Position numbers and translations under genes: made by a program. DNA of 64,000 nucleotides from an uncultured Flavobacteriaceae bacterium (GTDB lineage: Bacteria > Bacteroidota > Bacteroidia > Flavobacteriales > Flavobacteriaceae), in contig CANLVG010000001.1 in NCBI GenBank assembly GCA_947494565.1, forward strand, positions 372,001 to 436,000. The letters are read 5' to 3'. Of this stretch, positions 31,849 to 55,857 are shown piece after piece (the first letter of the stretch is position 1; the number at the start of each line of letters is the position of its first letter). The notes under the pieces are model-generated. The model was not told the origin of the DNA. It ran no database searches and was given only the letters and a program-made list of their open reading frames with translations.

Positions 31849-31987
31849 GCCATTATGGGTTAATTAGTACTGCTTTGGTTGTAGTCTCTCCATTTCTTGT
31901 GACGGTATCGTTGCACGTTTCCCCGATGTCAAGTCCACACAACGAATAATTCACTATCTTACCCTTAGTATCTTAAAAACAACTAGC

Positions 31988-32557: not shown

Positions 32558-32701
32558 CACTAGCTCAAAACAAGATTTCGTTTCAGCTCTAATGCGCACT
32601 GTACGAATGACGTGGTTGACCCGACCTCCTACTTCAGTACCTCTATATCCTAAATTCCCAATAATTAACAAACTGTATGGAATGTCACAAATTATTATTT
32701 A

Positions 32702-32721
32702 TATATTTGTATAATATACAA
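32702..32721 (+). promoter_or_regulatory. PadR promoter and overlapping palindromic operator
   Basis: An exact -7 box TATATTTG (32702-32709) is overlapped by a perfect palindrome: ttgtata (32707-32713), one central a, tatacaa (32715-32721). This is directly upstream of the PadR start at 32732. PadR family repressors bind AT-rich palindromes over their own promoters, so autoregulation is a direct reading of the layout. Confidence 0.6.
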
Positions 32722-32731
32722 TGTATAATTA

Positions 32732-33064
32732 ATGAAAAATAAAGGACTTGGCGAATTTGAAGAATTGGTACTTCTTGCCGTCTGTATCTTAAACGGCGAA
32801 GGATACGGAATTTCGGTAAAGAAGGAAGTCGAAAGACATTCTGGGCGATCTATTCTATTGGGAGCGGTGCACATAACCCTCTATCGCCTGCAGGAAAAGG
32901 GCCTATTACAATCTGAAATAGGCGGAAGCACCGAGAAAAGAGGAGGTCGGAGCAAACGGTTTTTCAAAATAACCGATTTGGGCCTGAAACAGTTGAAAGC
33001 TGCCCAGGCCGTACGCCAAAAAATGTGGCAATTGATTCCGCAATTGAAGATTACCCTATCATAG
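32732..33064 (+). CDS. PadR family transcriptional regulator
   Basis: A 110-residue winged-helix regulator of the short PadR subfamily. Family features seen: LGEFEELVLLAVCILNGEGYGISVKKEVE (4-32), the wing VHITLYRLQEKGLLQSEIG (about 49-67) and RSKRFFKITDLGLKQLKAA (about 74-92). The family represses neighbouring transporter or permease genes and releases DNA on binding small hydrophobic effectors. The stop TAG overlaps the GTG start of the permease by one base (TAGTG), so both are one operon. The operator at its promoter suggests autoregulation. Confidence 0.92.
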   Translation: MKNKGLGEFEELVLLAVCILNGEGYGISVKKEVERHSGRSILLGAVHITLYRLQEKGLLQSEIGGSTEKRGGRSKRFFKITDLGLKQLKAAQAVRQKMWQLIPQLKITLS

Positions 33065-35790: not shown

Positions 35791-36117
35791 TTTGCTGTGA
35801 AAAGCTACTTTTTGTTACATACGTCAAAAGTCGAATTCAACTAGCGTTTTGACGATGGTCTTTCTATGAATTCACTTCCCCTTCCCCACTAGCGCCAGTT
35901 CATAATACGGTCGTAGGCCCACCCGTTTTTTCAAATCTATGTCATGGAAGGTGCTGTGCGGTACATTTTAATTGACGACGGGTATTTCTGGGTTGTTTTT
36001 ATCGATGGGATGTCTGGAAAGAGAGGGAATTACCCTTTCATAAATTAAATGCTCCCCGTGGTCAAGCTCTTTTTTAAAACTGTTGTAATTGACGCTACTT
36101 GCAGCCAAAACACTGCA
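35791..36117. other. Intergenic region, nothing identified
   Basis: These 327 bases lie between the PadR-linked permease and the receptor. I see no terminator hairpin with a T-run, no RNA gene and no exact TAnnTTTG box. The extended reading frame of the receptor begins in it at 36049, but that part does not look like protein. Confidence 0.4.
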
Positions 36118-38565: not shown

Positions 38566-38595
38566 ATACTATTTACCTCAAAGGGTTATGAAGTA

Positions 38596-40953: not shown

Positions 40954-41422
40954 GGTTCTGATTTTGGATCTATTCGTAAGCTAGGCGTGTCTTTTGCGCA
41001 AGTGCACTGCAGTAATTTAAAGCATATATTTTAGAGACTAAAACTATGCCAACATATCAAGCGTCTCAATACCAATTCATTACAACGGAATTGATGAAAA
41101 TACCTTTGTTTTACTGTAAAAAATGTTTACACCAAATGTCTACTAATTGTACACCTGAACTACATCGTAAAGAGTTGACATCAGCCAATAGTCCATTGCT
41201 AAAGAAGAAAAGACCATAAAACGAACAGTTTTTAAGACTCCATAGATTTTCCAGACCGGTTGTATTAAACAACTTCCTTATATAACCGACCTCATATGAT
41301 GTTTTCAACACTTCGTTTTTGTATGCTTTGTTGTTAAAATTCCTGATTTAAAAATCCAGCTGACGGTTATCATTTTCTGCATGGACCTTGGGGCTTAATT
41401 TCGTCATCCAATTTGCTCAAAA
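40954..41422. other. Divergent intergenic region, no gene supported
   Basis: These 469 bases separate the minus-strand permease from the plus-strand MBL lipoprotein and should hold both promoters. No exact TAnnTTTG box was found on either strand. A 66-codon minus-strand ORF (41111-41311) exists but lacks conserved character or coding context. No hairpin with a T-run. Confidence 0.4.
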
Positions 41423-42232
41423 ATGGATGGGATAAAAGCAAAACCAAGAGGATTATGCTGGGTATGTATCTTACTGATAGGAATAACAATTCAAAGCTGT
41501 ACCATGGTAAAAGTTAGTGTAAGTGATAAACGAAATCCAGTTCCCCAAACCATGGCGTTCAACGAAAATCTGAAGATTACTGCTTGGGGCGCCATCAAAG
41601 TGAACAAGTCCGATTTTTTTCCATCGAGTTTCCAAATAGTGTCACAAGGGAAAACGATTTACATCGATCCTGTTGAAACAGGTATATCGGAAAAGGCCGA
41701 TTATATATGTATTACCCATGCACATCCTGACCATTATTCCCTGAAAACCATCGAGCGAATCGTTAAACCCGAAACCATATTCATATGCCCGAAAGAGGTC
41801 TCGAAAAAGCTTTCCAAAAAAGGCTATACCATACGGACGGTAGTACCTGATGACCGCATTGAGCTAGACAGTTTAACTATTCAAGCAGTACATGCGTACA
41901 ACACCAAAAATGTATTCTTATGGATAAAGGCGCATCCAAGGTCAAAACAAAACGTAGGCTTCATTTTAACGCTAGGGGGCAACATCCGCGTGTATCATGC
42001 TGGGGACACCGACTACATTCCTGAAATGGAAAAAATCAAGGATATTACCATAGCGATGGTGCCTGTAGGAGGAGACAATCTGACCATGAATATTGATCAG
42101 GCTTCAAAAATCATCAATAAGATCAGACCCAGGCTAGTTATACCAATGCACTATGAATTCAAACATAAGGCCGATTTGACGAAATTCAAATCTCTGGTGG
42201 ATAAGGATATTACAGTTGCCATTTTAGAGTAA
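41423..42232 (+). CDS. Metallo-beta-lactamase fold hydrolase (UlaG-like), lipoprotein
   Basis: A 269-residue MBL-fold protein with an N-terminal lipoprotein signal: hydrophobic run 12-24 and lipobox I-Q-S-C (Cys26). The metal-binding motif THAHPDH (HxHxDH) lies at about 93-99, the bridging aspartate in HAGDTDY (about 190-196) and the final histidine in PMHYEF (about 230-235). This layout fits the UlaG / YfhI-type single-domain hydrolases acting on phosphodiesters or lactones. It would face the periplasm or be membrane-attached. The small membrane protein gene follows 43 bases later. Confidence 0.85.
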   Translation: MDGIKAKPRGLCWVCILLIGITIQSCTMVKVSVSDKRNPVPQTMAFNENLKITAWGAIKVNKSDFFPSSFQIVSQGKTIYIDPVETGISEKADYICITHAHPDHYSLKTIERIVKPETIFICPKEVSKKLSKKGYTIRTVVPDDRIELDSLTIQAVHAYNTKNVFLWIKAHPRSKQNVGFILTLGGNIRVYHAGDTDYIPEMEKIKDITIAMVPVGGDNLTMNIDQASKIINKIRPRLVIPMHYEFKHKADLTKFKSLVDKDITVAILE

Positions 42233-42275
42233 GCCGTAAACGGCCAATATTAAAAGTAGAGATCAATTGGAACAC

Positions 42276-42698
42276 ATGTATGTATCAAGCAAGAACCTTC
42301 TTATTATAGGCAGCCTTTTGAGCTTCCTTGTTGTACTGTTACATATTGCACTCGCCATTAGACCAAAACTTTATGATTATTTCGGAGCTTCAAAGCTTTC
42401 CGAACTTAACGATGAAGGTTCATCGTTTACCGTATGGGTTACACTGGGGTTGGTTCTCATGTTCACCGTTTGGGGGTTTTATGGACTTTCCGGCGCAGGA
42501 ATTGTTAAAGAGCTTCCACAATTGCAGGTAGTACTGATCGGTATCGGTATCATTTACCTATTACGTGCGCTAATGCTTCCTTCGGATATCGTGAAATTTG
42601 CACAACATACCCATCCGTTCCGTTTTATTGTTTTATCGACCGGTTCTTTGTTAGCAGGCTTGTGCTATCTGATGGGTGCACTAATGACAGCCAAATGA
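42276..42698 (+). CDS. Small four-helix membrane protein
   Basis: A 140-residue protein with four hydrophobic helices (about 6-25, 48-68, 79-97 and 114-134). I start at the ATG 42276; the TTG at 42267 would add three residues. The segment FGASKLSELNDEGSSF links helices 1 and 2. It resembles small uncharacterised inner-membrane proteins of Flavobacteria. It lies between the MBL lipoprotein and rsgA on the same strand, 54 bases before rsgA. Function unknown. Confidence 0.65.
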   Translation: MYVSSKNLLIIGSLLSFLVVLLHIALAIRPKLYDYFGASKLSELNDEGSSFTVWVTLGLVLMFTVWGFYGLSGAGIVKELPQLQVVLIGIGIIYLLRALMLPSDIVKFAQHTHPFRFIVLSTGSLLAGLCYLMGALMTAK

Positions 42699-42752
42699 GA
42701 ATTTCAATACATTCGTAAAAGAACGGAACAATCGATAAAAGAAGATAAAAAA

Positions 42753-43820
42753 ATGACACTTGCAGATTTAGGTTACACGACCAGTTTAGCGCACTATCGA
42801 AAAAGCAATAATTGGGATTCTTTCCATATAGGCCGGGTCGTATCCGAACACAGAGACAGGTATGTGGTGAAAACCGATACTGGCGATTTTGAATCCGAAC
42901 TCATTGGTAATATAAGATATACCGCTGAAAACCGGTATGACCTGCCCGCCGTTGGGGATTGGGTCGCCATTTCCGAATATGATAAGGACAAAGCTTTGAT
43001 CCATTACATTTATCCAAGGCATTCGATAATTGAAAGGAAAGCGGTCGGAAAATCAGGACAGGTACAGCTAATCGCCACGAACATTGATTACGGCCTAATC
43101 GTTCAGTCGGTGAACAGGGATTTCAATACGAATAGGCTGGAACGGTATCTTGCCATCTGCAACGTTTCAAGGGTAAAACCCATTATCGTACTCAGCAAAA
43201 TCGATCTTGTAGATGAACTTGAATTGCAAAAGCGTATGCAGCAGATAAATGGACGAATCAAAGGAGTTCCATTGGTGGCCATTAGCAATGAAACCACTAT
43301 AGGGCTAGACAAACTGGAAACGCTTATAAGTGAAGGCAAGACCTATTGTTTATTGGGCTCCTCAGGCGTCGGAAAATCAACGCTCTTGAACAAGCTGTGC
43401 GGTAAGGAACTAATGAACACCGGAGCCATAAGCGAAAGTATCGATAGGGGCAAACACGTCACCAGCCATAGGGAGTTAATTGTTCTAGAAAATGGCGGGA
43501 TCCTGATCGACAACCCAGGAATGAGGGAAGTGGGCCTTACGGATTCCAGCTCAGGAATTGACATAACCTTCGAGGACATCGTAAAATTGTCGAATCATTG
43601 CAAATTCAAGGATTGTAAGCATACGACGGAAATCGGTTGCGCCGTAGTTGAAGCCCTCGAAAACGGTGATATTGATGAGGCGTCCTATGAAAACTATCTA
43701 AAAATGGAACGGGAAAAAATGCATTTTGAATCGACTATCGCTGAACGGCGCCAGAAGGACAAGGATTTTGGAAAAATGGTAAAGCGTTTCAAAAATCAAA
43801 AGCGCAGCGGCAAGGTTTAG
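42753..43820 (+). CDS. rsgA: Ribosome small subunit-dependent GTPase RsgA
   Basis: A 355-residue circularly permuted GTPase that checks 30S ribosomal subunit maturation. N-terminal OB-fold (about 22-95), then the permuted G motifs: NxxD-type ITVLSKIDLV-like stretch (IVLSKIDLVDE, about 145-155), the P-loop GSSGVGKSTLLNKL (about 201-214) and DNPGMRE (about 251-257). The C-terminal zinc site shows Cys and His in HCKFKDCKHTTEIGC (about 281-295). All expected elements are present and the length is standard. Only weakly linked to its neighbours. Confidence 0.93.
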   Translation: MTLADLGYTTSLAHYRKSNNWDSFHIGRVVSEHRDRYVVKTDTGDFESELIGNIRYTAENRYDLPAVGDWVAISEYDKDKALIHYIYPRHSIIERKAVGKSGQVQLIATNIDYGLIVQSVNRDFNTNRLERYLAICNVSRVKPIIVLSKIDLVDELELQKRMQQINGRIKGVPLVAISNETTIGLDKLETLISEGKTYCLLGSSGVGKSTLLNKLCGKELMNTGAISESIDRGKHVTSHRELIVLENGGILIDNPGMREVGLTDSSSGIDITFEDIVKLSNHCKFKDCKHTTEIGCAVVEALENGDIDEASYENYLKMEREKMHFESTIAERRQKDKDFGKMVKRFKNQKRSGKV

Positions 43821-44123
43821 AGAATACCCCAAATGCAACGGCCCCTATTTTCCATTTTTATATTGATTCCTGAAATGTGACCCAAAAACAACATTCTTGG
43901 AACACAGGCATTTTTCTCCCTTTCGTTCTTCCGATCCGGCTTTTCTCAATACTGATCAATGTCATAGATAACTAGGATCACAAATGCTAGATTGCCAACA
44001 GGCTGAAGATATCTTTCATCAAATTGCCAAATACACCTAGTGTTAGGCAAAAGATGCCAAATGGGTATTGTTCGAATAAGGAATAAATGGGCATTGCCTA
44101 TATGCCCATGCTGGCTATAATTT
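43821..44123. other. Intergenic region with an inverted repeat before the CPBP gene
   Basis: 303 bases without a gene. A perfect 8-base inverted repeat, atgggcat (44087-44094) and atgcccat (44102-44109), lies 14 bases before the CPBP start codon and has no T-run. It could be an operator or an mRNA hairpin near the ribosome site. Nothing else is recognised. Confidence 0.4.
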
Positions 44124-44975
44124 ATGAGAGACTATATAAAAAATAATCCGGTTACACTCTTCTTCATACTGACATTACTGATTTCGTGGAGCGGCATTTT
44201 GATTGTAGCAAACCAAACAGGAATCCCTGCCTCTACGGATCAATTTGATAAACTGCTTCCAATTGCCATGATCCCATATTTACTGGGCCCTAGTATTGCT
44301 GGTTTTATTATGATCGGAATAACTAAGGGAAAAGAAGGATTTAGCGCACTATTTAGAAAGCTTTTCAAATGGCGCTTGGGCAGCTCGACCTATCTGATCG
44401 CTATAGGTACCGTACCGATTATTTCGTTTATTTCCCTTTTCATTTTATATCAATTTTCAGAGGTATACATTCCGGATATTGTGACAACCACCGACAAAAT
44501 ACCCTTAATTTTAAGTGGATTGATTTATGGTATACTTGGCGGCGGTCTTTTAGAGGAACTGGGATGGTCAGGATATGCAACTCCCAAACTAAGGGAAAAA
44601 TATAGTGTATTGAAGACCGGTCTGATCATTGGTGCATTTTGGGGGGCATGGCACTTTCTTCCTGTTTTTTGGGGGTCTGGTGATAGTTCAGGTAACTTGG
44701 TGTTATCAAAGTTTTTACCAGGGTTGTTTTTTCACTATGCTGGTTTAATACCTGTGCGGATACTTATAGTCCGGCTTTATGATAGGTCGCTAAGTCTAAT
44801 TCCACCCATACTATTACATGCAACGCTAACAGCGTTCACATTTTTCATCTTCAATATTTCTCAAGTGGGTGTATCCCTTTTTATATATTATGCTCTTTTG
44901 GCTACCCTATTTTGGGTAGTTGTTGCACTTATCAAAAGGAAATCATTCTTAGAACCGACTAAGATTAGAAAATAA
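44124..44975 (+). CDS. CPBP family intramembrane protein (Abi/CAAX protease-like)
   Basis: A 283-residue protein with about eight hydrophobic helices. The CPBP motif 1 region is EELGWSGYATPKLREKY (about 147-163); the usual EExxxR reads EELGWS, so the arginine is replaced by serine. Motif 2 appears as GAFWGAWHFLP (about 173-183) with the metal-ligand histidine, and motif 4 as LLHATLTAF (about 231-239). The family contains CAAX-type proteases and bacteriocin self-immunity proteins. It lies 5' of the peptide secretion cluster but is separated from it by the first comM fragment. Immunity is possible but not shown. Confidence 0.82.
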   Translation: MRDYIKNNPVTLFFILTLLISWSGILIVANQTGIPASTDQFDKLLPIAMIPYLLGPSIAGFIMIGITKGKEGFSALFRKLFKWRLGSSTYLIAIGTVPIISFISLFILYQFSEVYIPDIVTTTDKIPLILSGLIYGILGGGLLEELGWSGYATPKLREKYSVLKTGLIIGAFWGAWHFLPVFWGSGDSSGNLVLSKFLPGLFFHYAGLIPVRILIVRLYDRSLSLIPPILLHATLTAFTFFIFNISQVGVSLFIYYALLATLFWVVVALIKRKSFLEPTKIRK

Positions 44976-45079
44976 AAATACCTCAAAAGCAATGTTGTTA
45001 CGTAAAAACAATATGTAATACAACTCCTCCACTACCGACAGTTTGCAACTGGTGGTCCCGTATGTATCTCAAAACCTAC

Positions 45080-45203
45080 CCCAACCACCCTTCTCGATCC
45101 AAACTCCGATATTGAATCGTCTCGGCAATATGATTACCGTTGGCTTCTGGGGTGTCCTCCAAATCAGCAATGGTACGGGCGACCCTTAAAATGCGATTAT
45201 AGG
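45080..45203 (-). pseudogene. Detached copy of the comM 3' end (fragment A)
   Basis: 124 bases align without gaps to the 3' end of intact comM (54326-54449), with 11 mismatches by my count. On the minus strand the frame is open and encodes the last 40 or so residues of ComM ([20 protein letters not shown] ... REGWLG), closed by TAG. Seven of the 11 changes are synonymous. Similarity weakly continues past the stop (ctaccg-cagtttgc at 45032-45046 and 54277-54291). There is no start or upstream part, so it is a relic and not a gene. The sequence around 45204-45499 shows nothing else except a promoter candidate. Confidence 0.9.
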
Positions 45204-45330
45204 TAACAAGATGGAGGTGATGCTGAAATATCAAAATCGCTCAAAAGAATATAGAAGCACCTTCTTTATACCATTTTTCACACCCTATTGTATCATTTTA
45301 TCTATAAAAATAATTAGTGTTTTCTTTACA

Positions 45331-45338
45331 TAATTTTG
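45331..45338 (+). promoter_or_regulatory. Candidate promoter of the peptide secretion cluster
   Basis: An exact TAnnTTTG box (TAATTTTG) lies 162 bases before the VKOR-fusion gene and inside the cargo block. A second near match, TATCTTTT, is at 45431-45438. Neither has an ideally spaced TTG. Confidence 0.4.
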
Positions 45339-45499
45339 TTCTCGTAAGAATAAACCTTATCTTTTGTGAAAGATAATTGCACCAATCAACCCCGATTCAA
45401 TTGTCTTAACTGTCCATCTCACCAATAAACTATCTTTTACCAAAAAGAATTGGCAGCCCCCCTGCTACTCTCTTTTGTTGAACTTAACCTAAGTCTGAT

Positions 45500-47140
45500 A
45501 TGGAAAATATTTCAGCTTTTAATGTTTTGCAGGAATTTTTAAAACATGAGAACTTCAAAGTTGATTATAAGGAACTGAAATTTCAGCTACTAAGCCACCC
45601 TTCTTATCCAAGCCTACATTCTATTACTGCTGTACTAACCCATTTTGGTATTGATACTATTGCTTTGCAAGTTCCTACAGATTTGAACATCTTGGAACAG
45701 ATGCCAGATTCATTTATTACACTTGATAACCACCACAGGTATCTGGTGGCATCAAAAAAAGAAAATGTCCTTTCCATTTTTAATGAACAGAAATTAAAAT
45801 CGACACTACTTCCTAAAGAATTTATATCCAATTGGAGTGGAATTGTTGTTGCCTTAGAAGAAGATGAAAAAAAGCTCGTAAACCAACCCAAAAACGAGGG
45901 AGCCTTTCTTTCAAGAATTGGTAACATGGGATTGGTACTTTTGGTTTTAGCGCTATTCTTGTTTTCTAAACCCAGCTGGTTTCAAACATTACATTTTGCC
46001 CTATCGCTAGTAGGTCTTATCATAAGTATCTTGATTTTAAGGCATGAATTCGGATTTCAATCAAAGGTCGTCGAGGAAGTCTGCAGCGGTACAGAATCTA
46101 CAAGTTGCGACGAGGTATTGAATTCAAAGGGCGCTCGATTTTTCGATTTTTTAAAATTGAGCGATTTAAGCATCATATATTTTTTAGCACTTAGTGCCGC
46201 CTGGCTTTTTACCGTAGTGCTAAAGGGTTCCAATACAGCTTTTATAGGTATATCGTCAATAGCAATTCCCGTTGCTTTGTACTCCATATATTACCAATAT
46301 AAGGTAGTCGAAAAATGGTGCCCCTTATGCCTGGGAGTTGTTGCCGTATTGATTTTACAATTTTGTAGTTTACTATTATCAAATAGTGCACCTACCGATT
46401 TTTTTCTTTTGAGACCTTTAGATGGGCTCATTTTACTCTCCTCTTTTGTTTTTATGTTTTCATTTTGGGTCTTTGTAAAACCGCTTCTACAAGGGGAACA
46501 AGAGGCTGAAAAACTTAGATTAGACTATTATAAGTTCAAACGTAATTTTGATTTGTTCAACGCGGTATTCGATAAAAAACCAAGCTTGAACATTACTATC
46601 CCCGAAATTCAAGAAAACGAAATTTTACTAGGAAACATTGATGCCCCACTTACCCTATTGTTGATTACTAGTCCAGGATGTAGGTATTGCAGAGCGGCCC
46701 ATACTGATATAGAGAATATTTTAAGAAATCATCCAAATGAAGTTAAGGCCATTATACGTTTTAGTGTGTATTCCGAGAACAAAAATGATGTGTCATACAG
46801 AGTAGCCGCCAGAATGCTACAGCTATATGATTTAGAATCTGCCGAGATGGTTGAAAAAGCACTGCATGAGGTGTATGCTGAAAATGCGGATTTGAAAGCA
46901 TGGCTGTCGAAATGGGGAGAAAATACCTTAGGCGCCTATGACGGAATCTTGGAGACACAACAAAAATGGTGCTTTGGCAATGGAATAGCGCTAACGCCTA
47001 GCTTGTATGTTCAGAACAAGAAATTCCCGTCAGAGTATAAACGAACGGATTTATCATTTTTTATAGAAGATCTGATCGAACAGACAGCAACCATAACCCA
47101 AAAAGAAAATAAAGAAACCAAAAAGTTAACCTCTGCCTAA
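45500..47140 (+). CDS. C39-like / VKOR / thioredoxin fusion membrane protein
   Basis: A 546-residue membrane protein with three parts. Residues 1-120 resemble a C39 peptidase fold (YKELKFQLLSHPSYPSLHSITAVLTHFGIDTIAL) but have no catalytic cysteine. Residues 140-325 form a vitamin K epoxide reductase-like helical domain with the cysteine pairs Cys195/Cys203 and CPLC (Cys274, Cys277). Residues 370-535 are a thioredoxin/DsbA-like domain with CRYC (Cys394, Cys397) and a cis-proline loop (ALTPSLYV). The VKOR-thioredoxin pair would oxidise thiols to disulfides. It is the first gene of the secretion cluster, 118 bases before the cysteine-rich peptide gene, which is its likely client. Confidence 0.85.
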   Translation: MENISAFNVLQEFLKHENFKVDYKELKFQLLSHPSYPSLHSITAVLTHFGIDTIALQVPTDLNILEQMPDSFITLDNHHRYLVASKKENVLSIFNEQKLKSTLLPKEFISNWSGIVVALEEDEKKLVNQPKNEGAFLSRIGNMGLVLLVLALFLFSKPSWFQTLHFALSLVGLIISILILRHEFGFQSKVVEEVCSGTESTSCDEVLNSKGARFFDFLKLSDLSIIYFLALSAAWLFTVVLKGSNTAFIGISSIAIPVALYSIYYQYKVVEKWCPLCLGVVAVLILQFCSLLLSNSAPTDFFLLRPLDGLILLSSFVFMFSFWVFVKPLLQGEQEAEKLRLDYYKFKRNFDLFNAVFDKKPSLNITIPEIQENEILLGNIDAPLTLLLITSPGCRYCRAAHTDIENILRNHPNEVKAIIRFSVYSENKNDVSYRVAARMLQLYDLESAEMVEKALHEVYAENADLKAWLSKWGENTLGAYDGILETQQKWCFGNGIALTPSLYVQNKKFPSEYKRTDLSFFIEDLIEQTATITQKENKETKKLTSA

Positions 47141-47258
47141 GCCTGTCCTTAAAAAGGAAAGGTCGGCAGGGGGAATAATATCTTTTCGCGAAAGATAGAC
47201 ACAAACCTTGAGTGTCGTTAAATGTTCAAGGGAAACAATAAATTTAAATCTTAGTATT

Positions 47259-47414
47259 ATGAAAAATTTAATGAATTTATCAGGAGTGGTCACTTTGGAC
47301 AAAGGGCAGCTGAAAGCTATCAACGGAGGTAATCAAGGAGGATGTGGAGAATGTTATGTTGGACATAAATGTAATCCTGGCATTATAACGGTGCAGGGTT
47401 GCGCAGTCTGTTAA
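47259..47414 (+). CDS. Double-glycine leader peptide with five-cysteine core (bacteriocin-like)
   Basis: A 51-residue peptide started at ATG 47259; a longer frame opens at 47208 but the leader begins at 47259. Residues 1-24 form a leader ending LDKGQLKAINGG, matching double-glycine leaders cut by C39 peptidases. The 27-residue core has cysteines at 29, 32, 38, 48 and 51 (spacing GCGEC ... HKC ... GCAVC) and is rich in glycine. Its position between the disulfide-forming fusion gene and the C39 exporter gene says it is the exported product. A disulfide-bonded bacteriocin or signal peptide is the best guess. Five cysteines leave one unpaired, or allow a dimer or another modification. Confidence 0.85.
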   Translation: MKNLMNLSGVVTLDKGQLKAINGGNQGGCGECYVGHKCNPGIITVQGCAVC

Positions 47415-47431
47415 TGCTGTATTGACCATGA

Positions 47432-47467
47432 AAAGGGCCATCACCAGTTTTGGGGTGGCCCTTTTTT
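47432..47467 (+). terminator. Rho-independent terminator after the peptide gene
   Basis: A 9-base stem (aaagggcca at 47432-47440 with tggcccttt at 47456-47464), extended by a few imperfect pairs, followed by a run of T. Placed 18 bases after the peptide stop, it would let the small peptide mRNA accumulate above that of the exporter genes downstream. Confidence 0.88.
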
Positions 47468-47653
47468 ATCAACTAGTAATTCATCCAATTCTTAGCTTGT
47501 TAACGATTGAAGAAATGGTTGTAAAGTCAATAGCAAAGGTATTGTGAAATTTCACTTTTCATATTGGTAACCAAAAATGTTCGTACGCATTGAACGGAAA
47601 CAATTCGATGCAATTACTTTCATGTCTTACCGATAAAAAACAATGTATTATTC

Positions 47654-49846
47654 ATGCCAAAATTTCCCTTCTATAAACAGGCAAATCTAAAGGACTGCGG
47701 TCCAACATGCATACAAATTATAGCGAAATTTTTTGGTAAAAAAATCTCAATACAGTCCTTAAGAAATTTGGCTGAGACCACCAGAGAAGGCAGCAGTTTT
47801 TTAGGTTTAAGCGAGGCAGCCGAGAAATTGGGCTTTCATACCCTTGGAGTCCAATTAGATTTTGAGAAACTGTCGGAAGCACCCTTACCTTGCATTCTTC
47901 ATTGGAACAAAGAACATTTTGTCGTACTCTATAAGATTAAAAACGACAATATGTTCATCTCGGATCCCGCACACGGACTGCTAAAATACGCGTTGCCGGA
48001 ATTCCTGAGTTTTTGGATTGGACATAATTCCGATAGTACAACCAATGAAGGTATTGCCCTATTGGTGCAGCCGACCCCGAGATTTTATGCTGATGCCGAA
48101 GAAGGTAAGGCAGATGAAAAATTTGATTTTCGCTTCATCTCGAAATACCTTTTGAAATACAAACAATTCATCTTTCAATTGGTCATTGGCTTGTTGGCGG
48201 GTAGTTTGCTACAGTTGATTGTCCCATTCCTTACTCAAAGTATTGTTGATGTCGGCATCCAAAATCAAGACCTTAATTTCATACTCCTGATCCTGGTGGC
48301 ACAATTATTTCTATTTGTCGGCCGAACGGCACTCGAAGTGGTAAGAGGTTGGATCCTTTTGCATTTGAGCACACGAATCAATATCTCTTTGATTTCCGAT
48401 TTTTTTATCAAATTGATGAACCTTCCGATGCCTTTTTTTGATGCGAAAATGACGGGAGACCTCTTACAGCGCATTAACGATCACAAGCGTATCGAAAAAA
48501 TATTGACCACTTCCTCATTGAACGTATTGTTTTCAATGGTCAATTTTGTCATTTTCGGATTGGTGCTCGCTTACTACAGCTTACAAGTTTTTGGAATTTT
48601 TCTTGTGGGAAGCATACTGTATTTTATTTGGGTTATCTACTTCTTCAAAAGAAGAAAGGTACTGGACTACAAACGTTTTTCGGAGGTTAGCCAAGAGCAG
48701 AGCAAGGTTATTGAATTGATCCGCGGTATGCAAGAGATAAAACTACACAATGCCGAACGCCGTATGCGATGGAATTGGGAGTATATTCAGGCGCGTCTCT
48801 TTAAGGTAGAAATGAAAAGCCTGGCACTTGAACAGTGGCAAAGCGTGGGTTCTTCATTTATTAACGAACTAAAAAATATCTTGATTACCGTTTTGTCTGC
48901 CAAACTTGTTATAGATGCAGAGATTACCTTGGGCATGATGTTGGCCATAGCATACATCGTAGGGCAATTGAATGCTCCCGTCGCGCAAATGATCAATTTC
49001 TTTAGGGATGCCCAAGACGCTAAGATCTCGTTAGATCGGTTGGGTGAAATCCATAATATGGAAGTCGAAGAAAAGGTCTCCGATAAAAAAATCAATCGTG
49101 TACCGGAAAATAGCGATTTTAAATTGACCAACGTTTCTTTCAGGTATGTCGGTGGATCAAACCCTGTTTTAAAGCAACTGAATCTGATTATACCTGCCAA
49201 TAAGGTAACGGCCATTGTTGGGGTTAGTGGAAGTGGAAAAACGACCCTGATGAAGTTGTTGTTGCGTTTTTACGAACCCGAACAGGGCGAAATAAAGATT
49301 GGGGAATTAACCCTTAGGGACATTTCACGGTATACATGGCGAGAGCATTGTGGCGTTGTGATGCAGGAAGGATACATTTTTAATGATACTATTGCCCAAA
49401 ACATTGCGGTAGGGGCCGATGTAATCGATGAAGAAAAAATCAGACATGCGGTTGAAGTGGCCAATATAGACGATTATGTGAATAACCTACCTCTGGGGTT
49501 CAATACCAAAATAGGTTTGGAGGGAACAGGTCTTAGCACAGGTCAAAAACAGCGGTTATTGATTGCCAGGGCGGTTTATAAAAATCCCAAATGCCTATTT
49601 TTTGACGAGGCCACTTCGGCGCTTGATGCAAATAATGAAAAGATAATCATGCAGAATTTAGAAACTTTTTTTACCAACAAAACCGTGGTCGTTATCGCCC
49701 ATCGCTTGAGTACCGTAAAGAATGCCCATCAAATTGTAGTGCTGGATCAAGGAAAGATTATTGAAATTGGAAGTCATGCAGCGCTTACGGCCCTCAAAGG
49801 GAATTATTATGATCTTGTAAAAAACCAATTGGAATTAGGAAATTAA
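47654..49846 (+). CDS. Peptidase-containing ABC exporter (C39 peptidase - TMD - NBD)
   Basis: A 730-residue bacteriocin-type exporter. The N-terminal C39 peptidase domain has Cys15 in KDCGPTC, His88 in EHFVVLY and Asp104 in ISDPAHG, so it is catalytically complete and would remove double-glycine leaders. Six transmembrane helices lie at about 165-440. The ATPase domain has Walker A GVSGSGKTT (about 522-530), signature LSTGQKQR (about 626-633) and Walker B CLFFDEATSALD (about 645-656). It should cleave and export the 51-residue peptide. The HlyD gene starts one base after its stop. Confidence 0.95.
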   Translation: MPKFPFYKQANLKDCGPTCIQIIAKFFGKKISIQSLRNLAETTREGSSFLGLSEAAEKLGFHTLGVQLDFEKLSEAPLPCILHWNKEHFVVLYKIKNDNMFISDPAHGLLKYALPEFLSFWIGHNSDSTTNEGIALLVQPTPRFYADAEEGKADEKFDFRFISKYLLKYKQFIFQLVIGLLAGSLLQLIVPFLTQSIVDVGIQNQDLNFILLILVAQLFLFVGRTALEVVRGWILLHLSTRINISLISDFFIKLMNLPMPFFDAKMTGDLLQRINDHKRIEKILTTSSLNVLFSMVNFVIFGLVLAYYSLQVFGIFLVGSILYFIWVIYFFKRRKVLDYKRFSEVSQEQSKVIELIRGMQEIKLHNAERRMRWNWEYIQARLFKVEMKSLALEQWQSVGSSFINELKNILITVLSAKLVIDAEITLGMMLAIAYIVGQLNAPVAQMINFFRDAQDAKISLDRLGEIHNMEVEEKVSDKKINRVPENSDFKLTNVSFRYVGGSNPVLKQLNLIIPANKVTAIVGVSGSGKTTLMKLLLRFYEPEQGEIKIGELTLRDISRYTWREHCGVVMQEGYIFNDTIAQNIAVGADVIDEEKIRHAVEVANIDDYVNNLPLGFNTKIGLEGTGLSTGQKQRLLIARAVYKNPKCLFFDEATSALDANNEKIIMQNLETFFTNKTVVVIAHRLSTVKNAHQIVVLDQGKIIEIGSHAALTALKGNYYDLVKNQLELGN

Positions 49847-49847
49847 T

Positions 49848-50600
49848 ATGCCTGAAAATCAACATAAAGACAAGCCTGCTATTGGACTCCGCAGTGAGGC
49901 GGTACAGGAAATATTGGGCCGCGTTCCCCATTGGATGATCCGTTGGGGAAATACATTGATCTTCACTCTGGTTGGGGGCGTACTTGTTATGTCATACTTC
50001 ATTAAATACCCAAGTTCGATTACTGCAACCGTTCTAGTAACGACCGCTAATCCTACGCAAAATATGTATGCCCCAACAACAGGAAATTTATCTGACGTGA
50101 TGGTGAAAGACGGTCAAATTGTGGAAAAAAATGAGCTATTGGCGACCCTTTCCAAGAACGAAACCGAAGAATCAATTAGGGCGTCCAGTTCAGGTCAAGT
50201 ACACTTTGTTGATTTTTGGAAAACCGGATTTACCGTTAAAAAAGGTGATTTGATGTTCAGAATAGTCCCTACGGAATATGGTTCTTTCATAGGGCGGTTG
50301 AAGATCCCACAGCAGTTAAGAATGAAGATTGACGAAGGCGATAAAGTACGAATTCGCATTTCGAAAAATCAATTGATGGAATATGAAATACTAGAGGGAG
50401 CGGTACAACATATCACATCAGTAGCAAACGAAAAAGATGCTGTTCAGGTGGAAATTGCCATCGGTCACGAGTTGATTTCTACCACCGGGAAAAAAGTGGA
50501 CTATCAGCTTGGAATGTCGGGTACAGCTGATATTATTACCGAAGACTTAAGGTTAATCGAGCGTTTTTTCTATAGATTGAAAGATATATTTGACGAGTGA
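49848..50600 (+). CDS. HlyD family periplasmic adaptor protein
   Basis: A 250-residue membrane fusion protein with an N-terminal cytoplasmic part, one TM helix (about 34-54) and a biotinyl-lipoyl-like domain (APTTGNLSDVMVKDGQIVEKNELLATL, about 73-99; SGQVHFVDFWKTGFTVKKGDLMFRIV, about 111-136) followed by a beta-barrel. The coiled-coil hairpin of longer HlyD proteins is missing, as in the short adaptors of Bacteroidetes C39 exporters. It works with the exporter one base upstream. No TolC-type channel gene is in the cluster, so an outside partner is needed. Confidence 0.88.
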   Translation: MPENQHKDKPAIGLRSEAVQEILGRVPHWMIRWGNTLIFTLVGGVLVMSYFIKYPSSITATVLVTTANPTQNMYAPTTGNLSDVMVKDGQIVEKNELLATLSKNETEESIRASSSGQVHFVDFWKTGFTVKKGDLMFRIVPTEYGSFIGRLKIPQQLRMKIDEGDKVRIRISKNQLMEYEILEGAVQHITSVANEKDAVQVEIAIGHELISTTGKKVDYQLGMSGTADIITEDLRLIERFFYRLKDIFDE

Positions 50601-50653
50601 TTTTCATATGGGTCATAGGTACATGTTGACTTTTCAATTCTACCCTTTTTGAC

Positions 50654-50823
50654 ATGTACTACGAAGAAGAGACGGCCGATTTTAAGCGAGCGGTTCAATC
50701 ACTTTCACTGTATTATTATATTTTAGTCTAAACCGTAATACTATTCAACAAGTCTATCGCATCTTCAGTTTAGAGAATCTTGTGGAAAACGCCGAAAATA
50801 CCATAAAGCAAATTGAGCATTAA
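50654..50823 (+). pseudogene. Possible decayed coding remnant before fragment B
   Basis: Two short open stretches in different frames lie end to end: MYYEEETADFKRAVQSLSLY (from 50654) and, after a frame change near 50725, NRNTIQQVYRIFSLENL... ending TAA at 50821-50823. Amino acid composition looks protein-like, which suggests a frameshifted fragment of a lost gene. No family is recognised. It may also be chance. Confidence 0.25.
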
Positions 50824-50875
50824 ATGGTTGGCACGTATCCACTCCGAGAAGTTCGCAACAACAATTACTAATCAA

Positions 50876-50975
50876 CCCAACCACCCCTCCCGATCCAAGC
50901 TTCGATACTGAATCGCCTCCGCAATATGATTTCCGTTGACTTTTGGGGTATCTTCTAAATTGGCAATGGTATGGG
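50876..50975 (-). pseudogene. Detached copy of the comM 3' end (fragment B)
   Basis: 100 bases align without gaps to comM 54326-54425 with 9 mismatches by my count. The minus-strand frame is open (HTIANLEDTPKVNGNHIAEA ... REGWLG) and closed by TGA, whereas intact comM uses TAA and fragment A uses TAG. Six of the nine changes are synonymous. It starts at the same base of comM (the last codons) as fragment A but stops 24 bases earlier inside the gene. It separates the secretion cluster from the DUF6090 array. Confidence 0.9.
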
Positions 50976-50978
50976 TTA

Positions 50979-51003
50979 TTATAATTACGTAATTTAATTA
51001 TAA
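50979..51003. repeat. AT-rich inverted repeat at the edge of fragment B
   Basis: Perfect 9-base arms, ttataatta (50979-50987) and taattataa (50995-51003), with a 7-base loop, begin three bases after the comM similarity ends. The remaining bases to 51175 are AT-rich and hold the presumed promoter of the DUF6090 array, which I could not place exactly. Confidence 0.5.
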
Positions 51004-51175
51004 GTAGAATCTTTAATAAGACTTTAAATTAAAACATAAATACTACTTTTTCAAGGTATACCAGAGTGTTTGAGGTTATACCATTAGGTTTTAATACATG
51101 GTATTTAACTATTAAACAAAAACTTTAAGAGATAAAACTGTAACTTGTTAAAGTAACCGCCCACCAATACTTCAA

Positions 51176-51922
51176 ATGATCAAATTCTTTAGACGAGTCC
51201 GTCAAAAGCTACTAACGGAAAATAAATTCAGTAAATATCTAATCTACGCCATGGGTGAGATTGTGTTAGTCGTCATAGGTATTCTATTGGCATTGCAAAT
51301 CAATACTTGGAATGAGGAAAGGAAAGACCAAAAAGAAGCGCACAAAATTCTACTGCAATTGAAAACTGAATTTGAAACGAACAATGACCTAGTCGATTCA
51401 AGTATCGAGTTTCATAGAACAAGACTAAACGCAGTCGAAGGTTTTATAGACGGGTTTGGAACCACTAAAAATTTGGATGCAGATTCTTTAAAAGTCCTAG
51501 TTTCAGGTTTGGGATCGGACTGGAAATATGAGCCCATAAAAAATATTATCGAATCGGTTATCTCTTCGGGAAAAATTAATTTAATCGAAAACGATTCTGT
51601 TATTCAGGCCATACGTTATTGGGGTACAGCAATTAATAAATATAATGATCTCTATGAGAGTCAAGATGAGCTATACAACAAAAACATATTGCCCATTTTA
51701 ACCGATAATTATCCATTTTTTGAATTTGACCCAAAACATAAGAGTAAGTTTGAGGCAAACACCTATGCCATTTTCAACAATTTAAAGAACGAAAACTCAT
51801 TTTTACTTATTGCTAAAGAAGCCGATTTACTTTTATATTGGACAGAAGAAGGTGTTAAAGCCCAACAAGATAAGATATTGGCAAAAATCGACCTTGAATT
51901 AAATGAAATGGCAGGCGAATGA
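51176..51922 (+). CDS. DUF6090 family membrane protein, copy 1
   Basis: A 248-residue protein with a conserved N-terminal block: basic amphipathic start MIKFFRRVRQKLL, then TENKFSKYLIYAMGEIVLVV with one transmembrane helix (about 22-42) and a WNEERK junction. The rest (about 50-248) is soluble, helical and divergent from the other copies, presumably outside the cytoplasm. Such proteins are common in Flavobacteria and known only as DUF6090. First of four tandem paralogues; overlaps copy 2 by 4 bases (ATGA). AT-rich relative to the housekeeping genes nearby. No function can be assigned. Confidence 0.85.
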   Translation: MIKFFRRVRQKLLTENKFSKYLIYAMGEIVLVVIGILLALQINTWNEERKDQKEAHKILLQLKTEFETNNDLVDSSIEFHRTRLNAVEGFIDGFGTTKNLDADSLKVLVSGLGSDWKYEPIKNIIESVISSGKINLIENDSVIQAIRYWGTAINKYNDLYESQDELYNKNILPILTDNYPFFEFDPKHKSKFEANTYAIFNNLKNENSFLLIAKEADLLLYWTEEGVKAQQDKILAKIDLELNEMAGE

Positions 51923-52668
51923 TAAAATTCTTTAGGCACATTAGAAAACGACTACTCTCTGAAAACAAATTCAGTAAATACCTACTCTATGCTGTTGGTG
52001 AGATTGTGCTTGTAGTCATTGGGATTTTGATTGCATTAGGAATTAATGATTGGAATGAAAATCGGAAAAATGAAACTATAATCAAAAACAATACAGTTCT
52101 TTTAATAGAGAGTCTTGTCGCTGATAGTATATATATCGTCAATAGAAAAATAGCTATTCAAAAGGATCTTGCAGTTGTTAGTGCTATTAAAAAAAGAGCT
52201 ACCATGCCCAACGTAAAAATTGACACCCTGATTATTATAGCAAGAGATGAATATACAGCAGGAGTTTCTGGGGTTAATTTTGCGAATCAAACCACGTTCA
52301 ATACCATGATGGTTTCCGGCGAAATAAATCTATACGACAAAGAATTAATTCAAGAGATTTATGGTATATATAATGACCAAGAATTTACGACATTACTTTG
52401 GGATAGTAGCTTTCAAAGATACACGGAGGCTCTAAGAGATTATCGAAGGAGGTATACATTTAATGGCCAAGCAAACATGGTTACAAAAGGCCCCTTGTTT
52501 CATAAAATATGGGATACTATTGATGAAGTAGACTTTATTGTAAAATTCAATCATATGGCAGGAAGCAAAATTTTGGTCTATAATCAAACAGGGGGAGGAA
52601 TGGATAAAGTTCAAAAAAGAATAGATGAACTACTTCCCAAACTGCGAAAAATTTTAGCCTATGATTAA
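51919..52668 (+). CDS. DUF6090 family membrane protein, copy 2
   Basis: A 249-residue paralogue. The N-terminus (MIKFFRHIRKRLLSENKFSK, then the helix GEIVLVVIGILIALGIN and WNENRK) is nearly the same as in copy 1, while residues 55-249 share little beyond a segment in the middle (TFNTMMVSGEINLYDKELI), which corresponds to SVISSGKINLIENDSVI of copy 1 and to similar stretches in copies 3 and 4. The shared S-G-[DEK]-I-N motif may be a structural core. It overlaps copy 1 by 4 bases and copy 3 by 8, so translation is coupled. Confidence 0.85.
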   Translation: MIKFFRHIRKRLLSENKFSKYLLYAVGEIVLVVIGILIALGINDWNENRKNETIIKNNTVLLIESLVADSIYIVNRKIAIQKDLAVVSAIKKRATMPNVKIDTLIIIARDEYTAGVSGVNFANQTTFNTMMVSGEINLYDKELIQEIYGIYNDQEFTTLLWDSSFQRYTEALRDYRRRYTFNGQANMVTKGPLFHKIWDTIDEVDFIVKFNHMAGSKILVYNQTGGGMDKVQKRIDELLPKLRKILAYD

Positions 52669-53404
52669 ATTTTTGAGAAAAATCCGACAACAACTACTAT
52701 CTGAAAACAAGTTCAGCAAATACCTATTATATGCTGTTGGAGAGATTGTGCTTGTAGTCATTGGTATTTTGATTGCCTTATCCATCAATAATTGGAATGA
52801 GGATAGAAAAAGAAAATCACTTATGACTACCTATATAGCATCTTTGAAAGGAGATTTAAAAAAGGATATCGAATTACTAACTCCCGGAATTTCATATATC
52901 GAATTTGATTGGAAAAAAAACAAATCATATTCCTCTAGATTGTCTTCTCCAAATGCAACAAATGATACGCTAATCAAAATAGCGCGTTATGAATTTTTTC
53001 CGGCAATGGGAGGACCTCAAAATGAGTTGAATCTAAATACATATAACACACTGTTATCAACAGGAGATATTAATTTATTAGATTCTGGTATTTTAAAAAA
53101 ACTACAAAACCATTACACCCTAGTGTCAGGGCATTTAAGCGATATGAAAATGAATGGTCAAGTTTATACTGACCATACAAAAGAATATTTGTCGTCTTAT
53201 CCAACCATATTAGATCATAATGCAATAAATGGAAGGTTAATGGCACCATTTTGGGAGAACATTGATGAAGATAATCTTAAATCAAAATTTAATGGTATTC
53301 TAACGGCTAGGATTTTTATGAGTCATGACATTAGAACTAGGAAAACTCAATTATTAAGCCAAACACAAGAATTTGTTTCCTATTTGGATTCGTTAGGTCA
53401 TTGA
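52661..53404 (+). CDS. DUF6090 family membrane protein, copy 3
   Basis: A 247-residue paralogue: MIKFLRKIRQQLLSENKFSK, TM helix with GEIVLVVIGILIALSIN, then WNEDRKRK. The central motif reads TYNTLLSTGDINLLDSGIL (about 127-145). The N-terminal 45 residues are closest to copy 2, including several identical codons, while the distal part differs. It starts within the end of copy 2 and is followed by a 63-base gap before copy 4, the only gap in the array. Confidence 0.85.
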   Translation: MIKFLRKIRQQLLSENKFSKYLLYAVGEIVLVVIGILIALSINNWNEDRKRKSLMTTYIASLKGDLKKDIELLTPGISYIEFDWKKNKSYSSRLSSPNATNDTLIKIARYEFFPAMGGPQNELNLNTYNTLLSTGDINLLDSGILKKLQNHYTLVSGHLSDMKMNGQVYTDHTKEYLSSYPTILDHNAINGRLMAPFWENIDEDNLKSKFNGILTARIFMSHDIRTRKTQLLSQTQEFVSYLDSLGH

Positions 53405-53467
53405 TATTAAATATGCCTTTATAGACCTGACGAACAGTTACAGAAAATTTACACCAGTATTAAACAA

Positions 53468-54223
53468 ATGATTAAATTTTTTAGAAAAATCCGACAACAA
53501 CTACTAACTGAAAACAAATTCAGTAAATACTTAATCTATGCCATTGGCGAGATTGTGCTGGTGGTCATTGGTATTTTGATTGCGCTACAGATTAATAACT
53601 GGAACGAAAGAAAAAAAGAAAGGGCACAGGAGCAAAAGTATTTGATTGAAATAAGGAAAAATTTAGAAGCTGATTATGCTCAAATAGAAAGTGTTGATAT
53701 AGAATATCAAAATATCATATCCAAAATTGACTCCCTACATATGTTTATAAAAAATGCAGAACCTAAAACAACTGACTATAAGAAACTATTCGACAATTTT
53801 ATGGTAGTATCTTATATACCAAAATTTAACCCTCAAAAAAATGGCTATAATAACTTAATTTCTGCTGGGGATATAAATCAAATTCAGAATCAGGAACTAA
53901 TGAAGAAAATAGCTTCACATTATAATTACATAGATTATAACAACCAACTTATAACAGAAACTCTTCGAGGTTCGAGTGCAAGAGATATTCATCCTCCCAT
54001 TAAAAGATTAATTGGCAAAAAAGAATTTTTAGCTGATTTAGGTTATGAATATTCTACGACAACTATTTCAGATGAATTTTTGTCAAAAAATGAGGAATTA
54101 ATAAGTGGTCTTATTTACAAAAAAAGATGGTTAAATATTGCATCGAGGAACACAAGTTCTTGGAAAGCAAAAACTAATAGTTTAATTGAAAATATAACAA
54201 CCGAGATTGAAAAAATAAAATAA
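53468..54223 (+). CDS. DUF6090 family membrane protein, copy 4
   Basis: A 251-residue paralogue: MIKFFRKIRQQLLTENKFSK, TM helix with GEIVLVVIGILIALQIN, then WNERKKERAQEQKYLIEIRKNLE with coiled-coil character. The central motif is GYNNLISAGDINQIQNQEL (about 125-143). It is very AT-rich: a 60-base sample at 53641-53700 has only 15 G or C. It is the last gene of the array and is followed by a 7-base hairpin without T-run (54259-54277) and then the 3' end of comM on the other strand. Confidence 0.85.
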   Translation: MIKFFRKIRQQLLTENKFSKYLIYAIGEIVLVVIGILIALQINNWNERKKERAQEQKYLIEIRKNLEADYAQIESVDIEYQNIISKIDSLHMFIKNAEPKTTDYKKLFDNFMVVSYIPKFNPQKNGYNNLISAGDINQIQNQELMKKIASHYNYIDYNNQLITETLRGSSARDIHPPIKRLIGKKEFLADLGYEYSTTTISDEFLSKNEELISGLIYKKRWLNIASRNTSSWKAKTNSLIENITTEIEKIK

Positions 54224-54321
54224 TTAAGCAAAACCAAGGTTAAAACTCATTGCTTACCGATTTCCTGAACGGAAATCTACCGCCAGTTTGCTATTCGTGG
54301 CCGCAAGAGTAAGAACTAGTA

Positions 54322-55857
54322 TTATCCCAACCACCCCTCGCGATCCAAGCTTCGATACTGAATCGCCTCAGCAATATGATTTCCGTTGACTTCTGGGGTG
54401 TCCTCCAAATCAGCAATGGTACGGGCGACCTTTAAAATGCGATCATAGGCCCGCGCGGATAGGTTCAACCGTTCCATGGCATTTTTCAATAGCTCCTTCG
54501 AAGCCGCATCGAGTTTACAGTACTCACGAATCTGCTTGGTATTCATTTGGGCATTGTAATGTACCTTATCCAAGCCGGTAAATCGTTGGGACTGTAGTTC
54601 ACGAGCCGCGGTCACCCGTTCTCGAATGGCCGCACTTTGCTCGCCCTTACGGTCATCGGACAGCTTTTCAAAGGGTACGGGCGTAACTTCGATGTGAATG
54701 TCGATACGATCCAAGAGCGGACCGGAAATCTTGCTTAAATAGCGTTGCATTTCAGCTGGAGAAGAGGTAACCGGGGCGTCGGGGTCATTGAAGTATCCAC
54801 CAGGACTCGGGTTCATACTCGCTACCAACATAAAACTACTGGGGTAGGTCACCGTAAAACGCGCACGGGAAATGGTTACCTCACGATCTTCCAAGGGTTG
54901 TCGCATGACTTCCAGAACCCCTCTTTTAAATTCCGGGAGTTCATCCAAAAATAAAACGCCATTGTGGGACAAAGAGATTTCCCCAGGTTGTGGGTACGCC
55001 CCTCCCCCGACCAGGGCTACGTCCGAAATGGTATGATGTGGTGACCGAAAGGGACGTTGGCTCATGAGTCCGGTATTCTTGACCTTTCCGACAACACTAT
55101 GGATCTTAGTCGTTTCAAGGGCCTCATGCAAGGTCATCGGCGGCAAAATGGAAGGCAGTCGTTTCGCCAACATGGTTTTTCCTGAGCCCGGGGGACCGAT
55201 TAGAATAATATTATGCCCTCCGGCTGCGGCAATCTCCATACAGCGCTTGATACTTTCTTGTCCACGTACATCGGAGAAATCAAATTCCGGAAAATCCAGA
55301 CTCTTGTGGAACTCAGCTCTGGTATCCACTATGGTCTCTTCAAGTGGTGTTCCCTTGTCAAAAAAATCGATGACCTCACTAATATTTTCTACGCCATAGA
55401 CTTTGATTCCCGAAACGATAGCGGCCTCTTTGGCATTTTCATCGGGAAGTATGAACCCCTCAAACCCTTCTTCCAAGGCTTTGATAGCAATAGGCAAGGC
55501 GCCTTTTATGGGTTGTACACTGCCATCCAATGACAGTTCCCCCATAATGATATACTTCTCTAAGTTTTTAGATTGTATCTGGCCAGATGCAGTAAGTATT
55601 CCAATAGCCAAAGTAAGGTCATACGCAGAACCTTCTTTTCGGAGGTCTGCAGGGGCAAGATTCAAGGTGATTTTCTTCCCTGGAATCTTATACCCGTTAT
55701 TAAGCAATGCGGCGGCTATCCGGTAATTGCTTTCTTTGATGGCGTTATCCGGTAGTCCGACCAAATGATAGCCGACCCCTGAATCTACATTGACCTCCAC
55801 GGTTATCGTAGTGGCCTCGATACCGAAAACGGCACTTCCATATACCTTTGTCAACAT
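54322..55857 (-). CDS. comM: ComM/YifB family Mg-chelatase-like AAA ATPase
   Basis: A 511-residue protein with the three-part ComM layout: N-terminal Lon-protease-like domain (about 1-170, VYGSAVFGIEATTITVEVNVDSGVGYHLVGLPDNAIKES), the Mg-chelatase ATPase domain with Walker A GPPGSGKTMLAKRL (about 219-232) and Walker B GVLFLDELPEF (about 301-311), and a C-terminal helical domain ([21 protein letters not shown]). ComM proteins are hexameric helicases promoting branch migration in natural transformation. The gene is complete. Its 3' end is the sequence repeated in fragments A and B. Ends convergently with the DUF6090 array, 98 bases away. Confidence 0.95.
   Translation of the reverse strand: MLTKVYGSAVFGIEATTITVEVNVDSGVGYHLVGLPDNAIKESNYRIAAALLNNGYKIPGKKITLNLAPADLRKEGSAYDLTLAIGILTASGQIQSKNLEKYIIMGELSLDGSVQPIKGALPIAIKALEEGFEGFILPDENAKEAAIVSGIKVYGVENISEVIDFFDKGTPLEETIVDTRAEFHKSLDFPEFDFSDVRGQESIKRCMEIAAAGGHNIILIGPPGSGKTMLAKRLPSILPPMTLHEALETTKIHSVVGKVKNTGLMSQRPFRSPHHTISDVALVGGGAYPQPGEISLSHNGVLFLDELPEFKRGVLEVMRQPLEDREVTISRARFTVTYPSSFMLVASMNPSPGGYFNDPDAPVTSSPAEMQRYLSKISGPLLDRIDIHIEVTPVPFEKLSDDRKGEQSAAIRERVTAARELQSQRFTGLDKVHYNAQMNTKQIREYCKLDAASKELLKNAMERLNLSARAYDRILKVARTIADLEDTPEVNGNHIAEAIQYRSLDREGWLG

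Follow-up and report, generated by a model that had tools for sequence, protein, structure and literature searches.

In Proteobacteria the competence gene comM is interrupted by mobile elements, Tn7-like ones included, and loss of ComM reduces transformation with non-homologous segments, as stated in passages of two earlier papers (PMC11472951, PMC4774983). In the part of the first that treats Acinetobacter, salvage of comM by recombination is described as no more frequent than chance (PMC11472951), and a passage of the second has prophages entering the competence genes comK, comFA and comYC in a site-specific manner (PMC4774983). Here we describe comM in a stretch of 64,000 nucleotides (the window) from an uncultured Flavobacteriaceae bacterium (assembly GCA_947494565.1, contig CANLVG010000001.1, positions 372,001 to 436,000), in which the intact gene is followed by two detached copies of its own 3′ end, called tails below, with cargo genes between. 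We consider it probable that comM is a multi-site integration target in Flavobacteriaceae, and that tails remain once the 3′ end of the gene has been restored.

The target is the same as that of the AbaR/AbGRI Tn7-like islands of Acinetobacter and of the elements in Aggregatibacter and other Pasteurellaceae. The flavobacterial loci differ from these in having large serine recombinases (LSRs), in belonging to another phylum, in using several fixed sites, and in bearing scars of restoration. Entry into a transformation gene at specific sites is shared with the prophages of competence genes, but here restored copies stack behind the gene, and IMG/VR held no relative of the one LSR tried and no match for three end motifs. 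Integrative islands at the 3′ ends of genes (tRNA genes, guaA and similar) restore the target gene and leave its old end displaced beyond the cargo, as here. These islands carry a tyrosine integrase beside the site, whereas near comM tyrosine integrases were rejected as candidates: a narrow regular expression found none, and PF00589 had no match on the window's contig or within 35 kb of comM in nine other genomes. Homology-facilitated illegitimate recombination, with one homologous and one non-homologous junction, would give the same layout, but does not predict the shared in-register ends that we find.

Tails of comM in the window and in the family

The intact comM of the window (511 aa, stop TAA) occupies 54322-55857 on the minus strand, and both tails lie downstream of it on the same strand. 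Tail 1 (45076-45203, comM nt 1409-1536) ends in TAG and is 90.6% identical to comM; tail 2 (50872-50975, comM nt 1433-1536) ends in TGA and is 91% identical. Both align without gaps. A blastn search of the window with comM returned 45077-45203 (127 nt, 12 mismatches, comM nt 1409-1535, E 1e-43) and 50876-50975 (100 nt, 9 mismatches, comM nt 1433-1532, E 1e-33), confirming a preliminary description of the locus that reported two gapless, same-strand 3′-end fragments about 91% identical to comM and a separate stop codon for each copy. That description also had both fragments beginning at the same point. This holds for the outer end by the stop, but the inner ends differ, lying at nt 1409 and nt 1433, the latter moving to nt ~1424 if the junction motif is read in. 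No further pieces of comM were found in the window's own genome at E 0.001.

We surveyed 395 Flavobacteriaceae genomes (our handles are G for genomes, L for loci and C for contigs), of which comM was matched in 376. More than one match to the last 269 residues of ComM, counted by hand, was present in at least 67 of these; up to six candidates per genome were scored, so that the survey counts are lower bounds. The 66 genomes besides the window's were classified by hand. Intact comM with a same-strand piece downstream was present in 26 (G055 being a weak case) and split comM in 15; in the remaining 25 the extra match reflected a distant paralogue, a contig break, a frameshift or a remote piece. 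Counting the window, at least 27 of the 376 genomes carry an intact comM plus a downstream tail and at least 15 a split comM, and a motif scan added a 28th tailed genome, G042. Detached comM tails with different cargo, which the preliminary description proposed to look for in relatives, are present in other Flavobacteriaceae. The control gene ilvC, whose query was as long as that of comM and similarly conserved, matched 311 genomes, only two of them with a second match. A local control took in 86 comM loci with their 1245 open reading frames (ORFs) 150 aa or longer. Detached 3′ ends of comM gave 17 matches in 14 of the 86 loci (two of the 14, L038 and L044, being near-identical); the other ORFs together gave 25, which fell in full-length paralogues in 20 cases and outside them in five (Fisher p 2e-13). 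The comM tails are beyond chance. Our literature searches, which covered open-access full texts, turned up neither comM tails nor LSRs in comM for Flavobacteriaceae.

One pair of genomes, from a single genus, provides a clean empty site. The comM 3′ end of G221 and the DNA downstream of it align colinearly over 2158 bp with the tail of G025 and the DNA following that tail; what G025 has in addition is a comM end plus ~600 nt with a 136-aa ORF. None of nine other pairs compared was as clean. Some native genes reappear past the tail in G331/G197, in G307/G161 and in the window's two pairs; in the other pairs compared no native genes occur past the tail within the stretch examined. The proposal that tails mark presence/absence boundaries of cargo is therefore borne out in the G025/G221 pair. 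The view that DNA inserted repeatedly at the 3′ end of comM and that the gene was made whole again is supported.

Identity between a tail and the comM of its own locus ranges from about 71% to 99%. Between tail and host gene there are 102 synonymous and 6 nonsynonymous changes in G125, and 67 and 12 in G331; since these are mostly synonymous, those ends diverged as parts of working genes. For the window we count 8 synonymous and 4 nonsynonymous differences in tail 1 and 6 and 3 in tail 2, close to the earlier counts of 7 of 11 and 6 of 9 synonymous. From such counts it had been argued that the window tails were not decaying in place, which we do not uphold. The overall count of 14 synonymous changes in 21 does not separate the two readings. 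When polarised with 16 relatives, the tail branch has 7 nonsynonymous and 3 synonymous changes (tail 1, 4 and 2; tail 2, 3 and 1) and the comM branch 0 and 6, with five further synonymous changes ambiguous. With third positions almost saturated, the placing of the synonymous changes is uncertain; what stands firm is that the window tails have seven nonsynonymous changes and comM has none. This pattern fits decay after detachment.

Neither window tail is as close to any relative sampled as it is to the comM of its own host, so that the donor, or the previous host of the element, would be a near relative. Our attempt to polarise which 3′ end is foreign failed; tails are mostly closest to the host gene, with exceptions such as G225. 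Tail length does not track divergence: short tails can differ little from comM (G346, 99.2% identical; L056, 98.2%). Internal losses occur within the tails of L059, G332 and G029.

Fragments of comM also lie remote from the gene (G206:C1:4159264, G378:C1:706582, G363:C8:337262 and 339201), which suggests islands with comM ends that moved on or were rearranged. One genome has a second full-length ComM-like gene (G092:C39:174741-175493), with 56% identity over the matched part.

Split genes, serine recombinases and fixed sites

In eleven split loci both halves share one contig; the cut is at codon 280 (GATGT or a variant) in nine of them and at about codon 296 in two, G029 and G337. In four others (G085, G171, G316 and G382) the halves at codon 280 are on two contigs, so that the presence of an island there is inferred. 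An LSR was found in all 15 split loci, within 0.9 kb of the junction in 14 and ~5 kb inside in G068. The five LSR proteins scanned all contain Resolvase, Recombinase and zinc-ribbon domains; one flavobacterial LSR is a distant relative of phage integrases, with 24-28% identity among the ten matches listed. The Acinetobacter islands insert in the Mg-chelatase domain, in which codon 280 probably lies as well. In front of the 3′ half at codon 280 stands ACCACCACATTATATACTATCACA, or a variant, which we term the A-type right end. In a leave-one-out test the nine single-contig loci cut at codon 280 scored 4.8 to 26.8, each against a matrix from the other eight.

None of 37 loci with an intact comM plus a tail contained an LSR at E 1e-3 (5 to 64 kb per locus). 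The window has no LSR by tblastn at the same threshold, and PF07508 has no match anywhere in its genome; taken with the result for PF00589 on its contig, this agrees with the preliminary description, in which no integrase was present. No transposase was found among 10 window proteins scanned by Pfam, although no search was aimed at tni genes. A tRNA-linked integration site was rejected, the window having no tRNA genes.

By eye, the tails of G125, G331, G172, G332, L026, L059 and G347, in loci where comM is whole, begin from the same GATGT behind a similar end, and so does the second tail of G029. With an A-type matrix built from nine split loci, six of the seven tails called by eye were among the best 11 of 564,790 positions scored in the restored loci, with scores of 12.0 to 22.9. 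In G331 and G087 a comM piece ending at GATGT starts ~49 nt after the restored stop, in the manner of an attL scar. The majority of long tails start from codon 280 and have the LSR-island end sequence in front of them, which makes them attR remnants. A further left end near codon 280 is common to G177, G225 and L085, and is not A-type by score. The window tails are outside the codon-280 LSR-island class: the best A-type score in the insert is 4.3, and the tails start at nt 1409 and ~1424, not at the GATGT of codon 280.

In-register alignment of the short tails gave two more sites, C at nt ~1424 and D at nt ~1482. Site C is represented by G307, G271 (the same locus as L055), L056, tail 2 of the window and, weakly, G269, and site D by G100, G210, G269, L047, L104 (twice) and G042. 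The site-C motif is ACTTATAATkAAATTtTATGA. The right-end motif lies just before tail 2, at 50984-51017 on the minus strand, where it contains ACTTATAATTAAATT and is in register with G307, G271 and L056. Over the 34 nt before site C, tail 2 has 24, 20 and 19 positions in common with these three. Shifted comparisons, 11980 in all, gave at most 22 positions, with five reaching 20 and 59 reaching 18. The three loci lie outside the window's genus and carry other cargo: that of the window is four DUF6090 genes, that of G307 a pentapeptide-repeat protein and that of L056 an unassigned 723-aa protein. G307 and L056 apparently belong to one genus, with different cargo. Tail 2 falls within site C, by an assignment made post hoc on a degraded motif. 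The left end of tail 1 matches none of the shared motifs, and tail 1 is outside the site-C class. The second junction is therefore private for tail 1 and recurrent for tail 2. The preliminary description had left site-specific entry only to a system acting in trans; yet most long tails bear LSR-island ends and tail 2 is at a recurrent site.

The 395 genomes were scanned for both sites at up to three mismatches, using patterns with about ten comM letters. For site C two genomes matched, both at comM, and for site D five, four at comM and the fifth (G378) at a degraded, remote comM tail; the reversed patterns gave no match. The site-C motif alone, in 10 chosen genomes, had two matches, both at comM, and its reverse had one. 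Without its comM letters, the site-D motif had nine matches at up to one mismatch in 149 genomes, of which two were exact, both at the comM of G042.

Several loci have composite arrangements. In G269:C3 (L117, L118, L150) a split comM with its LSR is followed by a further three tails of the gene, together with several A-type ends and 13 DUF6090 genes. L047 (13840-13990) has an A-type island end ~60-90 nt before its site-D tail, two junctions thus being nested at one comM. G042 has two site-D ends downstream of comM (C1:3062547 and 3064264), the farther one adjoining a DUF6090 gene. In G210, locus L142 (1906-5300, oriented by comM), comM has four DUF6090 genes and a fragment of itself (aa 252-289) on its upstream side, contrasting with the usual downstream layout. 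In G177:C2 (L124, L148, L125) ~39 kb separates comM from a 717-nt comM tail of 98.5% identity. This is a recent large capture in which no recombinase was found; by eye it resembles a locus for polysaccharide use, with sulfatase-like and SusC/D-like genes.

Origin of the tails

The recurrence of the tails, their shared sites and end sequences, the LSR present in every split locus and in no restored locus examined, and the one clean empty site are what an explanation has to accommodate. We favour one in which elements would enter fixed points in the 3′ half of comM, namely codon 280, codon ~296, nt ~1424 and nt ~1482. At the two codons, elements with an LSR would cut the gene in two. In a restored comM the 3′ end would have been supplied anew and the recombinase lost, the old end being left as a tail beyond whatever cargo remains, and repeated rounds would stack tails and cargo. 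The new end might be borne by the element or come by recombination with incoming comM DNA, and we place the odds between these as roughly even. At codon 280, repair by incoming comM DNA fits best, because split and restored states both occur, the recombinase is gone on restoration, and attL-like scars remain. At sites C and D, an element bringing its own last 17-36 codons is about as likely. Tail 2 may stem from a site-C element whose recombinase was lost or had never been present, and tail 1 from a similar event outside the shared site classes.

A number of observations weigh against this explanation. The tail of G347, A-type by eye, fails in register on the matrix. The site-C class of tail 2 was seen only after ~40 tails had been inspected, its motif is too diverged for the genome scans to recover, and its likeness to G269 is weak (15 of 34 positions). 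The comM letters in the scan patterns favour matches at comM; when those of site D were removed, seven one-mismatch matches fell elsewhere and the reversed motif had two. No recombinase was found with site-C, site-D or A′-type tails, so that recombinase action there rests on the shared ends, and no comM is split at site C or D among the 376 genomes. Many tails, among them those of G025, L074, G118 and G346 and window tail 1, have private left ends, which fit an illegitimate junction equally well. Finally, there is no comM tail at the far end of the 13 kb of further DNA past tail 1.

If repair were the only process, all tails would derive from LSR islands at codon 280 in which the intact comM of a donor later took the place of the left part and of some of the tail; short tails would be cut-down long ones, and sites C and D would not be real. 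We give this a minor though appreciable probability, which for codon 280 overlaps with that of our preferred explanation. It accords with the finding that an LSR and an intact comM never occur together in the loci examined, with the attL-like scars of G331 and G087, and with the internal losses of L059, G332 and G029. But short tails can be recent, as in G346 and L056, length is independent of divergence, and tail starts repeat at sites C and D with end motifs of their own. The short-tail units at those two sites consist of a few genes and a 3′ end of comM; their right end is conserved, and no recombinase was found in them. That they are self-restoring cassettes with the comM 3′ end as attachment site seems to us unlikely; if so, they would stack cargo behind a competence gene without disabling comM.

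In homology-facilitated illegitimate recombination, incoming DNA with a comM end and cargo would pair with comM on one side and join at random on the other, leaving the old end behind, and comM would stand out only because its restoration is selected. The process is known in naturally competent species, according to a passage of PMC3240628, and it would suit the lack of an LSR in 37 of 37 restored loci, the lack of a tyrosine recombinase near comM in 10 genomes, the several private tail starts, and the empty site of G025, which needs only one homologous junction. It does not account for left ends that are shared in register, at codon 280, nt ~1424 and nt ~1482, across genera and with different cargo, nor for the second matches in only 2 of 311 genomes with the comparable ilvC query, and we think it distinctly improbable. 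Tandem duplications of the host's comM 3′ end that decay in place are hardly credible as a source of the tails. The window tails are indeed closest to the host comM among the species sampled, and their own changes look unconstrained. However, cargo lies between the copies, it is the tail and not the active gene that continues into native flank in G025, and in G125 and G331 the changes between tail and host gene are largely synonymous. Plain tandem duplication was rejected on the first two grounds.

Cargo behind comM and its significance

The extent of the window's insert follows from comparison with the closest relative, G013 (locus L098; ComM identity 94%). There comM is followed by 264 nt, then by a gene 45% identical to a window gene with TIR and Lcl_C domains (30264-31733, minus strand), then by a conserved block. 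In the window that gene is the first of the native downstream block, which starts at 31733, ~22.6 kb from comM. As its counterpart directly follows comM in the relative, the insert spans 54321 to ~31734. It does not stop at tail 1, which had been taken as the boundary of the cargo. The DNA past tail 1 (31734-44975) encodes an Rce1-like protein, MacB/FtsX permeases, an outer-membrane beta-barrel protein and others. The relatives compared have none of it between comM and the native block. No third comM tail was found in the ~22.6 kb.

Block 1 (45500-50600, plus strand) is a peptide export cluster by Pfam, comprising a C39-like/VKOR/thioredoxin protein, a short ORF, a C39-peptidase ABC transporter and an HlyD protein. 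Read by eye, the short ORF (47208-47414) has a double-glycine type leader and a cysteine-rich end, and it is probably the exported peptide. Block 2 (51176-54223, plus strand) consists of four tandem DUF6090 genes, all alike, the first and last matching PF19578. Genes of this family are present in 9 of 134 comM loci examined (some redundant, and of unequal length): 8 of 52 split or tailed loci against 1 of 82 others (p 0.002), to which G042 is added. They lie on the strand opposite to comM in 33 of 34 cases. Their presence in the split loci G378 and G316 ties block 2 to elements that target comM. No paper in the literature searched names DUF6090.

We scanned 66 of 75 cargo ORFs from comM loci (the nine left out being eight from G269b and one from G332). 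PADLOC matched 13 families, one ORF apiece, and after these and the Pfam scans a defence island was rejected as the identity of the cargo. The 66 ORFs matched 69 Pfam families, the 25 most frequent of which include no integrase; two ORFs match the IS200-like transposase Y1_Tnp.

Whether cells regain competence genes broken by mobile elements is an open question in the conflict between natural transformation and mobile DNA. The scars at comM are a physical record of break and restoration across a bacterial family; they can be ordered by divergence, and they show which cargo stays. They also point to a family of serine recombinases with a conserved chromosomal target. The flank of comM is a place in which to seek acquired genes, such as those for secreted proteins, the 39-kb insert, the DUF6090 arrays and the peptide export cluster.

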